The notes under the pieces were generated by a model, which saw only the letters and a program-made list of their open reading frames with translations, was not told the origin of the DNA and did no database searches. From Bacteroidales bacterium (lineage in GTDB: Bacteria; Bacteroidota; Bacteroidia; Bacteroidales; WCHB1-69), in the NCBI GenBank assembly GCA_031272025.1, contig JAISUP010000081.1:1-34018 (forward strand): a stretch of DNA of 34,018 nucleotides, written 5' to 3'. How positions within the stretch are numbered: position 1 is the stretch's first letter; each line of letters begins with the position of its first letter. The position numbers were made by a program, and so were the translations under genes. Positions 4,541 through 8,902 of this stretch are shown here, piece by piece.

Positions 4541-4548
4541 TACCTTTG
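4541..4548 (+). promoter_or_regulatory. -7 element TACCTTTG upstream of ispG
   Basis: TAnnTTTG match; the ORF-track TTG start at 4546 lies inside it. Confidence 0.5.
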
Positions 4549-4569
4549 CATGTTTATTTATTCTTTTCA

Positions 4570-5913
4570 GTGAAAAAAAAGGATTTCATTTCTCGAGAAA
4601 TAACCATTGGCAGGCAAAAAATAGGAGGGCTTCATCCTGTATTATTGCAATCCATGACCAACACGAGTACTTGTGATGTAGCCGCTACCGTGGAACAAAT
4701 CATAAGATTGTCAAACGTGGGGTGCGAAATGGTGCGTTTTTCCGTACCGGCGATGCGTGATGTTCGGGCGGTAATTGAAATCAAGAACCTTGTTCGACAA
4801 AAAGGGATAGACATGCCATTGGTTGCCGATGTGCATTTTCAACCCGCGGTAGCCGAAGCCTTAGTAGGTATTGTAGATAAAATACGGGTAAACCCCGGCA
4901 ACTATTCTACCGACAACCATGAAAAAAACGGCAAACGTACTTTTAACGATTCTTTTGAAACGATGAAAGAAAAGGCACGTTCGTTATTACAGTTATGTGA
5001 TAGAGACGGTACGGCTTTGAGAATTGGCGTGAATCACGGCTCTCTTAGTCATCGTATCGTGGAACGCTATGGCAACGGGGCGGAAGCCTTATGTGCCTCG
5101 GCAATGGAATGGGTTAAAATATGTCAAGATTTTAATTTTCAAAATGTTGTGTTTTCCATGAAAGCCAGTAACGTGCTCGTGATGATTCAGGCTACATGGT
5201 TGTTGGCAGAGCAGATGCGTGCTACCGGGCAGTGCTATCCTTTGCATCTTGGGGTTACCGAAGCAGGCTCCGGGTTGGACGGGAGAGTAAAATCCGCGGC
5301 AGGAATAGGTGCACTATTATTGCGAGGGCTTGGCGATACCCTTCGGGTTTCTTTAACAGAAAAACCTGAAAATGAAATTCTTTTCGCGAAAAAAATGCTA
5401 CAAGCCATAGAAACGATAGATGTGGAAAAATACCCGTTAGATACTCAGGGCAGGTTAGTGTACGAGAGCGAAGAACAAGATCGCGAGCAATGGATCGCGG
5501 CGGCGGCGGCATTGTCGGGATACTATCATTCCACCATAGGCATACGCGACATTTGGATATCTAATCCATTTTTCTCGCTAAAAGAATGCAAATTATTAGC
5601 CAACGCTATTTTGCAAGCATGCCGAGTCAAAATGAGTTATACCGAAATTATTTCTTGCCCCACCTGCGCGCGTACAATTTACGACTTGGAAAACGCCGTT
5701 GAAAAAGTAAAACGCCGTTTCATAAACTATCCCGGCTTAAAAATCGCGGTTATGGGTTGCGTGGTTAATGGTCCGGGTGAAATGGCAGATGCCGACTATG
5801 GTATCGTGGGAAGTAGCAAAAATAAAGTGGTAGTATACAAAGGAAAAGAACGAATTTCTTCAAATGTATCGTTAGAGGAGGCTTTAACCATATTAGAAAC
5901 ATTGATTCATTAA
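4570..5913 (+). CDS. ispG: 4-hydroxy-3-methylbut-2-enyl diphosphate synthase, Bacteroidetes type with shortened central domain (GTG start preferred)
   Basis: LLQSMTNTSTCD, VADVHFQP, IRVNPGNY, IGVNHGSLS, LHLGVTEAG, LGDTLRVSLTEKPE, ISCPTCARTIYDLE, MGCVVNGPGE; start moved to GTG 4570 because the 4546 TTG is in the promoter. Confidence 0.92.
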   Translation: MKKKDFISREITIGRQKIGGLHPVLLQSMTNTSTCDVAATVEQIIRLSNVGCEMVRFSVPAMRDVRAVIEIKNLVRQKGIDMPLVADVHFQPAVAEALVGIVDKIRVNPGNYSTDNHEKNGKRTFNDSFETMKEKARSLLQLCDRDGTALRIGVNHGSLSHRIVERYGNGAEALCASAMEWVKICQDFNFQNVVFSMKASNVLVMIQATWLLAEQMRATGQCYPLHLGVTEAGSGLDGRVKSAAGIGALLLRGLGDTLRVSLTEKPENEILFAKKMLQAIETIDVEKYPLDTQGRLVYESEEQDREQWIAAAAALSGYYHSTIGIRDIWISNPFFSLKECKLLANAILQACRVKMSYTEIISCPTCARTIYDLENAVEKVKRRFINYPGLKIAVMGCVVNGPGEMADADYGIVGSSKNKVVVYKGKERISSNVSLEEALTILETLIH

Positions 5914-5922
5914 ATTAAGGTC

Positions 5923-7200
5923 ATGAAACAATATAATGAACATAAATTCAATCAATTAAGAAAAAAATACCCGTTGTTTGAGTATTTTAGTTATCAAATA
6001 GAAGTAGATGCGCGTACCATCACGATGTTTTTTGATTTTCGAGTAGGAGAAAGTCTGAAATTTCAGCCTCAAATGGTATTGCATTTGGGAAATCACGCGA
6101 GGGCTTCGCTTGCTTACGAAGATTTGGACGGCTTGGTTTGGCATATTGGGCTTATTGAATTACTAAGTTATTGGAAGTCAACATGCTCCGCGGACATTCA
6201 GGTTCGCGGAGGTTTTTTGACTCCCGAACAAGAAAAATGGTGGAAAAAGTTGTATTATCATGGTTTGGGTGAGTTTTTTTATCAAAATGGCATATCGGTT
6301 GAAGAAGATAATTTTGTCAAGTTCGTGCAAGACTTATCGTCCGCGCGGTACTTGTCTTCTCAATTCAAGTACAAGAAACAACCCCAAAGTACTCGTGTAA
6401 TTGTTCCAATAGGCGGGGGCAAAGATTCTGTGGTTACTTTGGAAATGTTGAAAACAAGTCGCGAAGTGATTCCCTTTATCATTAACCCGCGACAAGCTTC
6501 GTGGGATTGCCTCGAAATTGCCGGTTTTTCTCGGGAAGATGCAGTGGTTTTAGAGCGTGTCATAGATCCAAAACTATTAGAACTCAATCGCGATGGATTT
6601 CTCAATGGACACACTCCCTTTTCCGCGATGTTGGCATTTTATTCTTTATTAGTTAGTTATGCTACAGAAACACGAGATATTGCCCTTTCTAACGAAGCCA
6701 GTGCCAACGAAGCAACTATCCCCGGCACGCGTATCAATCATCAATACTCTAAATCCATAGAATTTGAGCAGGATTTTGCCGCTTACGTGAAAACATACAT
6801 GGGAGATTGCGCTCATTATTACAGTTATTTACGAAAATACAACGAACTATGGATTGCCGAGAAGTTTGCCCAATACCCTGATTATTTTCCCGTGTTTAGA
6901 AGTTGTAACGCGGGCAGTTTTCAAAACCGGTGGTGTGGAAAATGTGCCAAATGCCTTTTCACGGCAATTATTCTATCCCCATTTTTGAGCGAAAATACGC
7001 TTTTCCGGATTTTTGGAAAAGATATGTTAGACGATGCCGATTTATTACCTCTCTTTGAAGAATTAACCGGTATGGCTAAGGAAAAACCTTTTGAATGTGT
7101 AGGAACCATTGCCGAAGTCAATGATGCCGTGAAACGGGTGATTGAAAAATACAAAGGAAAATATCTGATTGAAGAATATTGTAAGAGAGTGAATTTATGA
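5923..7200 (+). CDS. murL: MurL-like UDP-MurNAc-L-Ala-L-Glu epimerase (PP-loop type)
   Basis: LYYHGLGEFFYQNG, VPIGGGKDSVVTLEML, LSNEASANEATIPGTRINHQYSKSIEFEQDFAAYV, NRWCGKCAKCLF, RIFGKDMLDD, KPFECVG; the arrangement agrees with Xanthomonas MurL as recalled. Confidence 0.75.
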   Translation: MKQYNEHKFNQLRKKYPLFEYFSYQIEVDARTITMFFDFRVGESLKFQPQMVLHLGNHARASLAYEDLDGLVWHIGLIELLSYWKSTCSADIQVRGGFLTPEQEKWWKKLYYHGLGEFFYQNGISVEEDNFVKFVQDLSSARYLSSQFKYKKQPQSTRVIVPIGGGKDSVVTLEMLKTSREVIPFIINPRQASWDCLEIAGFSREDAVVLERVIDPKLLELNRDGFLNGHTPFSAMLAFYSLLVSYATETRDIALSNEASANEATIPGTRINHQYSKSIEFEQDFAAYVKTYMGDCAHYYSYLRKYNELWIAEKFAQYPDYFPVFRSCNAGSFQNRWCGKCAKCLFTAIILSPFLSENTLFRIFGKDMLDDADLLPLFEELTGMAKEKPFECVGTIAEVNDAVKRVIEKYKGKYLIEEYCKRVNL

Positions 7201-7946
7201 GATATTTCGTTAAATTAGCCTATAATGGGATTCCTTTTTTCGGTTGGCAAATACAGCCCAACAGGATAACTGTACAGGCAATATTACAAGACGTATTCTC
7301 GCGGTTGCTCAAACAGCCTATCATCTTTACCGGCTGCGGACGAACCGATACAGGGGTACATGCAAAGTGCTTTTATGCTCATTTTGATTGTAATATAGTT
7401 TTAAATGTATCAGAAAAAAACATCTTTTTGCGAAAAGTCAACTCGTTTTTGCCCAAAGAAATTGTCGTTTACAACATGTATGCTGTTCCCCCTGATGCTC
7501 ACGCACGTTACGATGCGATTGAACGAACTTATCGCTATTATATTGCTATGCAAAAAGATCCATTTAATTTTCATTTTGCCTATCGTTTTTTCATGTCTTT
7601 AAATGTAGAGAAAATGAACGCGGCGGCAGAAATATTATTACAAACAAACGACTTTACCAGTTTTTGCAAATTACATTCACAAACAAGCAACAACACGTGT
7701 CAAGTTAGTTGCGCGAAGTGGTACGCGAAAAACGGGTTGCTCGTTTTTGAAATCACGGCAAATCGGTTTTTACGAAACATGGTGCGTGCCATCGTGGGCA
7801 CCTTGCTAAAAGTAGGTAAAGAAAAAATGAGTATAACTTGTTTTCAACGGGTTATAGAAGATAAAAACCGGTGCTCTGCCGGAGAATCTGTTCCCGCGCA
7901 CGCCTTATTTCTCGAAAACGTTACGTATAATTATAAATTTGAATAA
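7197..7946 (+). CDS. truA: tRNA pseudouridine(38-40) synthase TruA
   Basis: YNGIPFFGWQIQPN, GCGRTDTGVHAKCF, ANRFLRNMVRAIVGTLLKVG; ATGA overlap with the upstream gene. Confidence 0.93.
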   Translation: MRYFVKLAYNGIPFFGWQIQPNRITVQAILQDVFSRLLKQPIIFTGCGRTDTGVHAKCFYAHFDCNIVLNVSEKNIFLRKVNSFLPKEIVVYNMYAVPPDAHARYDAIERTYRYYIAMQKDPFNFHFAYRFFMSLNVEKMNAAAEILLQTNDFTSFCKLHSQTSNNTCQVSCAKWYAKNGLLVFEITANRFLRNMVRAIVGTLLKVGKEKMSITCFQRVIEDKNRCSAGESVPAHALFLENVTYNYKFE

Positions 7947-8902
7947 TGAAAATTGTTTTTATGGGTACCCCCGATTTCGCGGTACCTTCGTTGGAAGCCA
8001 TTGTCAATGCCGGACATGAAATTGTATCGGTAGTTACCGTCCCCGACAAGCCGTCAGGGCGCGGGTTGTGTTTGCAATATTCTGAGGTAAAGAATTTTGC
8101 CCTTTCTCGTGATTTGCCGGTTTTGCAGCCGGAAAAGATGCGGGATACTCACTTTATCGACACCCTTCGACATTTGGAAGCCGATTTATTCGTGGTGGTG
8201 GCATTTCGCATGTTACCCGAAGAGGTGTTTGCTCTTCCCCCGCGAGGGACATTTAACGTACATGCTTCGCTTTTGCCCCGTTATAGAGGTGCTGCTCCTA
8301 TTCAACGGGCTATCATGAACGGGGAAACTACCACCGGGGTAACGTCCTTCTTTTTAAACAAGGAGATGGACAAGGGAAATATCATCGCGCAAATGACAAC
8401 ACCCATATTAGAGCACGAAACCGGTGGAGAACTGTACGACAGGTTGAAACAACTTGCCGCAACACTTACCCTAAAAACGATTCAAGAGATAGAAACAGAA
8501 ACCGTGACCCTCGTGGCACAAGAGAATTTGGTTACAGGAGACGAGCCGCTTGCACCCAAAATTTTTAAAGAAGATACGTTGATAGATTGGCATCAACCGG
8601 CACAAAAGATATATAATCAGATACGTGCATTGTCTCCCTACCCGGGTGCCTATACTCGCGTAAAAACGCGCAATGGGGACATTTTTTTGCTAAAATGTTT
8701 CAAAGCAGAAATTTCAGAGCACCGCCCAATCTTTCCCCAACCGGGACGATTTGAATGCGATGGAAAAGATTTTTTATCGGTACAAACATCTGATTATAAT
8801 ATATATATGTCTAATGTACAGTTGCAGGGGAAGGCAAGAATGGAGATAAAGCAATTTTTACCGGGTTTTAGAATAAATAATTACATTGACACGATGTTTT
8901 AA
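7946..8902 (+). CDS. fmt: Methionyl-tRNA formyltransferase
   Basis: MKIVFMGTPDFAVPSLEAI, FNVHASLLPRYRGAAPIQRAI, RALSPYPGAYT. Confidence 0.95.
   Translation: MKIVFMGTPDFAVPSLEAIVNAGHEIVSVVTVPDKPSGRGLCLQYSEVKNFALSRDLPVLQPEKMRDTHFIDTLRHLEADLFVVVAFRMLPEEVFALPPRGTFNVHASLLPRYRGAAPIQRAIMNGETTTGVTSFFLNKEMDKGNIIAQMTTPILEHETGGELYDRLKQLAATLTLKTIQEIETETVTLVAQENLVTGDEPLAPKIFKEDTLIDWHQPAQKIYNQIRALSPYPGAYTRVKTRNGDIFLLKCFKAEISEHRPIFPQPGRFECDGKDFLSVQTSDYNIYMSNVQLQGKARMEIKQFLPGFRINNYIDTMF

Follow-up and report, generated by a model that had tools for sequence, protein, structure and literature searches.

The window, which is the whole 34,018-nucleotide stretch of Bacteroidales DNA that we analyzed, encodes a protein (5923..7200, + strand) that is very probably the MurL of the MurD2/MurL route of peptidoglycan synthesis; we put the probability of this at about 93%. 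In this route, MurL would convert L-glutamate to D-glutamate after its attachment to the wall precursor, and MurE and MurF would then act as usual. We infer the catalytic activity, the substrate, and the direction of the reaction for the window's protein. The direct support is the sequence family, the motifs, a PP-loop-type structural model, the absence of murI, and a partner with MurD2-type residues. Further support comes from the linkage and fusion of MurL and MurD2 in sister families, from the mutual exclusion with murI, and from the grouping of the partner with the MurD2 of Xanthomonas. Against this we count a score well below the cut-off of the family model, the location of MurL and MurD2 on separate contigs, a draft genome, the retention of canonical MurD in some relatives, weak fold matches, and one MurD2 with atypical residues. 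The finding extends a known enzyme and pathway to a new and widespread set of bacteria; it does not represent a new kind of system.

The murL gene and its protein

The open reading frame is intact, with an ATG start and 425 amino acids plus a stop codon. It begins 9 bp after the end of ispG (gcpE; 4546..5913, +; TIGR00612, 409 bits, cut-off 280) and overlaps truA (7197..7946, +; TIGR00071, 163 bits, cut-off 143) by 4 bp (ATGA, 7197-7200); truA in turn abuts fmt at 7946 (7946..8902, +; TIGR00460, 261 bits, cut-off 201). The arrangement ispG-murL-truA-fmt that was described in the initial annotation, including the 4-bp overlap, is therefore real in the window, and the TIGR models give the identities. 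All three neighbors lie outside the pathway. In other members of the window's family, murL has different neighbors, and in three of them truA lies about 2 kb from it. Because the order is not conserved in relatives, we consider it to be local and to carry no functional information, and we dropped it as support. The linkage that is informative is the one between MurL and MurD2 in sister families, not the operon in the window. Elsewhere in the window, there is an open reading frame of 219 amino acids (605-1264) in which just the first 62 residues align to the RhuM family (PF13310), and only to its beginning; it is possibly a truncated or shifted gene.

The sole NCBIfam match of the protein is the MurL model NF041275 (E = 1.1e-69, 235 bits, residues 75-409). 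This model is named for the Xanthomonadales and has an equivalog cut-off of 700 bits, which no Bacteroidales member from the window's family or from our sample of the order reaches. We read the lower score as placing the protein outside the named Xanthomonadales subgroup and still within the MurL enzyme family. The initial annotation had proposed a comparison with Xanthomonas MurL, and this gave 33.9% identity to MurL from X. sacchari in an alignment that covers 75% of the window's protein (E = 2e-43); the X. sacchari plasmid record has an annotated murL directly before murD. A Pfam search gave no match, and a sequence search of the PDB matched no solved structure.

The claim that the protein carries the full motif series of MurL also held up. 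We aligned 34 MurL proteins (alignment A1; 32 from Bacteroidales, one from Xanthomonas, and one from Pseudonocardia), and the window's protein keeps all 43 of the 43 invariant columns, which include the GGG-K/R-DS PP-loop, NGH, SNExSA, NHQxSK, SCN, WCxxCxKC, and KPxxCxG. GGGKDS (residues 164-169; 6412..6429, +) is the predicted ATP pyrophosphate-binding loop and is invariant except for a change of K to R in Pseudonocardia. Within NGHTPFS (residues 228-234; 6604..6624, +), G229, H230, and P232 are invariant in A1, and the entire motif is invariant in alignment A2. NHQYSK (residues 272-277; 6736..6753, +) is invariant as NHQxSK across Bacteroidales, Xanthomonas, and Pseudonocardia, and in KPFECVG (residues 388-394; 7084..7104, +) K388, P389, C392, and G394 are invariant. 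Finally, the cluster SCN...WCxxCxKC (6904..6954, +) contains four cysteines (C328, C338, C341, and C344) that are invariant in both A1 and A2. Their conservation suggests a candidate metal site, possibly for zinc or an iron-sulfur cluster; the available portions of reviews of the MurL/MurD2 pathway do not mention such a site. MurL from X. sacchari shares GGGKDS, NGH, SNExSA, NHQxSK, SCN, WCxxCxKC, and KPFECVG with the window's protein, which differs from Xanthomonas MurL in being only about 34% identical, in lacking about 35 C-terminal residues, in scoring below the cut-off, and in being encoded apart from MurD2 in its own genome.

GGGKDS follows a strand and precedes a helix, as expected for the PP-loop superfamily. 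An AlphaFold model, which was built from 59 sequences from the window and from database contigs, is confident throughout (pLDDT 94.8, pTM 0.93). Its nearest solved folds are TtuA, the nitrile synthetase ArtA, argininosuccinate synthetase, NAD and GMP synthetases, and LarE. These matches are weak (the best has E = 6e-3, and TM is about 0.25) and most of the top ones are PP-loop enzymes, so the model suggests a relationship to the PP-loop ATP pyrophosphatases. As a rule, members of this superfamily cleave ATP to AMP via adenylation. Such chemistry fits Xanthomonas MurL, for which PMC8788868 reports that AMP release was measured and that an adenylate intermediate was proposed. An adenylation step in the window's protein would be taken from that work, where it is a hypothesis too. 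TtuA, argininosuccinate synthetase, NAD synthetase, ArtA, and LarE thus have in common with MurL a predicted PP-loop core fold and ATP-to-AMP adenylation, but they differ from it in substrate, their fold similarity is weak, and none is matched by sequence in the PDB.

The missing racemase and the MurD2 partner

The source genome is a draft of 1.88 Mb in 104 contigs and is 91% complete. The initial annotation had predicted that murI might be lacking, and a family search found none; the entire Asp/Glu racemase superfamily has zero matches in this genome even at E = 1, while 14 of 14 control genomes do have matches. Family-wide absence together with the superfamily search leads us to reject the idea that murI was missed because of gaps in the draft. 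We also rejected a D-amino-acid transaminase as the source of D-glutamate, as no match was above the cut-off in this genome or in 55 genomes. Peptidoglycan is evidently made, because MurC, MurE, MurF, and a fusion of MurF with alanine racemase (Alr) are present.

The only full-length MurD in the genome (G000:C54:11049-12377) is on a different contig from MurL. At the positions of D182, K319, and K348 of E. coli MurD it has Glu, Ile, and Arg (E/I/R), so that Glu and Arg replace Asp182 and Lys348, as in MurD2. According to PMC8788868, Glu197 and Arg358 of X. oryzae MurD2 (XOO_1320) set its specificity for L-glutamate, the enzyme comes to use D-glutamate when Asp and Lys are restored at these two positions, and a change of K319 in E. 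coli MurD allows the use of L-glutamate. The partner in the window's genome has the same Glu and Arg and, like X. oryzae MurD2, lacks the Lys equivalent to K319. By its residues, then, it appears to be the MurD accepting L-glutamate that the initial annotation called for. The genome resembles X. oryzae, whose MurL (XOO_1319; NF041275) also has a MurD2 partner and no murI alongside it, and differs from organisms with MurI and a canonical MurD in having no murI and no full-length canonical MurD.

Outside the window's family, MurD2 lies immediately 3' of MurL in 54 of 62 loci and is fused to it in 3 more (57/62 linked). These three fusions (L148, L155, and L162) have 885, 921, and 949 amino acids, and there are six more among 80 named contigs (L302, L310, L313, L330, L335, and L342), and these natural fusions have roughly 900 amino acids and more. 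Within the window's family, MurL and MurD2 are mostly separated and are adjacent in some genomes (e.g., G006 and G015). The residues at 182/319/348 are E/I/R in 46 of 46 full-length MurL-adjacent MurDs in one set, in 30 of 30 MurDs from the window's family, and in X. sacchari MurD2; they are D/K/K in all 29 MurDs from MurL-negative genomes (MurI was found in 25 of the 29). The one exception is a MurL-linked MurD2 with D/I/R (L126, genome G091). A single genus within the window's family also has a fusion of MurD2 with MurB (766 amino acids; L364:399-2696, genome G044); judging by the length of the reading frame, G009, G036, G050, and G055 have it as well.

In a maximum-likelihood tree, the MurD2 proteins of Bacteroidales form one clade (support 97/98), which joins Xanthomonas MurD2 (100/97), while native Bacteroidales MurD is apart from MurD2 (99/99). 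MurD2 from X. sacchari is thus in the same clade, with the Bacteroidales proteins as a separate branch within it; because the Xanthomonas branch is long, the exact depth of this join is unsure. The tree leads us to reject the conversion in place of a native MurD to the use of L-glutamate. Because MurD2 groups with that of Xanthomonas and apart from native MurD, we think it most likely that many Bacteroidales acquired a MurL-MurD2 unit in place of MurI and MurD. In the simplest history, the two came in together and took over from MurI.

Distribution in the order and the fate of native MurD

MurL is present in 55 of the 59 genomes of the window's family and in all 32 of the good ones, and MurI is above the cut-off in 0 of the 59. 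Given how common MurL is in the family, we reject the idea that it is a contaminant or was transferred just once, into one metagenome-assembled genome (MAG). Across a sample of 198 genomes from 120 families of the order, MurL is found in 68 genomes and 44 families (one family via a fragment at a contig edge), MurI is above the cut-off in 120 genomes, no genome has both, and 10 have neither. In other words, MurI is in 120 of 130 MurL-negative genomes and in 0 of 68 MurL-positive genomes (Fisher exact test, p = 1e-42 by genome or 5e-27 by rough counts of families; because the sampled genomes are related, these values are descriptive only). Some MurL-positive genomes do have weak matches to MurI. 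The two that we typed are like cysteate/amino-acid racemases, with TIGR00035 above its cut-off, so we rejected these as genuine MurI. The initial annotation considered this route to be unusual for the lineage, and here it needs correcting: in the window's family the route is fixed, and about one-third of the order's sampled families have it.

Three near-complete genomes of the order, G132 and G235 (family f75) and G072 (f15), have neither MurL nor MurI above the cut-off. G072 lacks an above-cut-off MurD too and may be without a normal wall. Separately, reading frames of 137-159 amino acids whose match to the MurL model is restricted to its C-terminal portion occur in six places (G057:C31:85317-85580, G047:C12:136190-136333, G013:C5:272758-272910, and three others), and the same genomes also have a full MurL.

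Among 297 genomes sampled from the phylum, no full-length MurL match was found outside of the order (the window itself was the sole full-length match). The nearest relatives in named database contigs are 53-58% identical and are mostly from uncultured Bacteroidales of the rumen and hindgut; more distant relatives include MAGs labeled Lentimicrobium, Marinifilum, and Draconibacterium. PMC8788868 and PMC5808125 list Gamma- and Alphaproteobacteria and actinobacteria as having the pathway, with low-similarity orthologs in a fungus, cyanobacteria, and an amoeba, and do not mention Bacteroidota; PMC8788868 describes the route as limited to relatively few genera. Our search of the openly accessible literature returned no report of MurL in Bacteroidota, which does not prove that there is none.

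The native murD has had a different fate, and in the window's family it is mostly reduced to a stub. At its usual place in the division and cell wall cluster of the window's genome, between what we take from their sequences to be mraY and ftsW, there is a reading frame of just 192 amino acids (L134:7002-7580, G000:C84) whose match to the MurD profile is confined to the C-terminal part (272-418). Such stubs, of about 185-212 amino acids and also between mraY and ftsW, are found in 19 further genomes of the window's family (20 in total) and in eight sampled genomes from other MurL-positive families (loci L134, L225-L233, and L346-L363). Erosion of the catalytic motifs has gone further in some stubs than in others. 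Nevertheless, the close pairs that have moderate dS give dN/dS values of about 0.09 to 0.13, which implies strong purifying selection, so the stub is a maintained protein and we reject a plain pseudogene. We lean, if only slightly, towards the idea that native MurD, once supplanted by the newly acquired MurL and MurD2, shrank to its C-terminal domain and persisted in that form, no longer as an enzyme but as a scaffold or regulator of wall synthesis or division. Other genomes retain more of the protein. One genus of the window's family (g15; G015 and G028) appears to have retained a longer, putatively canonical MurD, and 31 residue-checked order genomes that are MurL-positive and murI-negative keep a full D/K/K MurD (L194-L224). 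Overall, about half of the MurL-positive genomes in the order have an intact canonical D/K/K MurD, with no obvious source of D-glutamate.

Alternative explanations and implications

These retained MurDs are one reason to ask if MurL and MurD2 are real but secondary, with most of the D-glutamate for the wall coming from a racemase that was missed in the drafts, or from salvage, and being added by canonical MurD. The genomes are indeed incomplete, and D-glutamate could be salvaged. But 20 genomes of the window's family have just a stub where native MurD would be, which leaves them with MurD2 as their sole ligase. Also, not one of the family's 59 genomes has MurI above the cut-off, the window's own genome lacks the whole racemase superfamily, and the weak racemase matches that were typed elsewhere are of the cysteate/amino-acid kind. 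We consider a secondary role to be very unlikely.

We think it even more improbable that the protein is some other PP-loop enzyme, such as a tRNA-modifying sulfurtransferase or an amide ligase, whose likeness to MurL is only at the level of the superfamily. Its fold neighbors are generic PP-loop ATP pyrophosphatases, its score is under the equivalog cut-off, and it is encoded beside truA, a tRNA-modification gene. However, the truA neighborhood is not conserved, no alternative family model in Pfam or NCBIfam matches the protein, and it shares motifs beyond the PP-loop with Xanthomonas MurL. The linkage and fusion with MurD2 and the exclusion of murI are specific to a role in peptidoglycan synthesis. 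So we found neither a better match to another PP-loop family nor an intact murI with a canonical MurD, and we retain the identification of the protein as MurL.

Because general family models label MurD2 as a D-glutamate ligase and give no above-cut-off name to MurL of the window's type, wall biosynthesis is likely to be misannotated in these bacteria. The dozens of MurD2 proteins, together with the natural fusions and the canonical MurDs that some genomes keep, also make the switch of the ligase from D-glutamate to L-glutamate directly testable. The order includes many rumen and hindgut species, and the breadth of MurL across its families, with clean exclusion of murI, indicates that a substantial part of this abundant gut and sediment order uses MurL, not the textbook glutamate racemase. 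We would expect these bacteria to escape inhibitors of MurI but to be hit by inhibitors of MurL.
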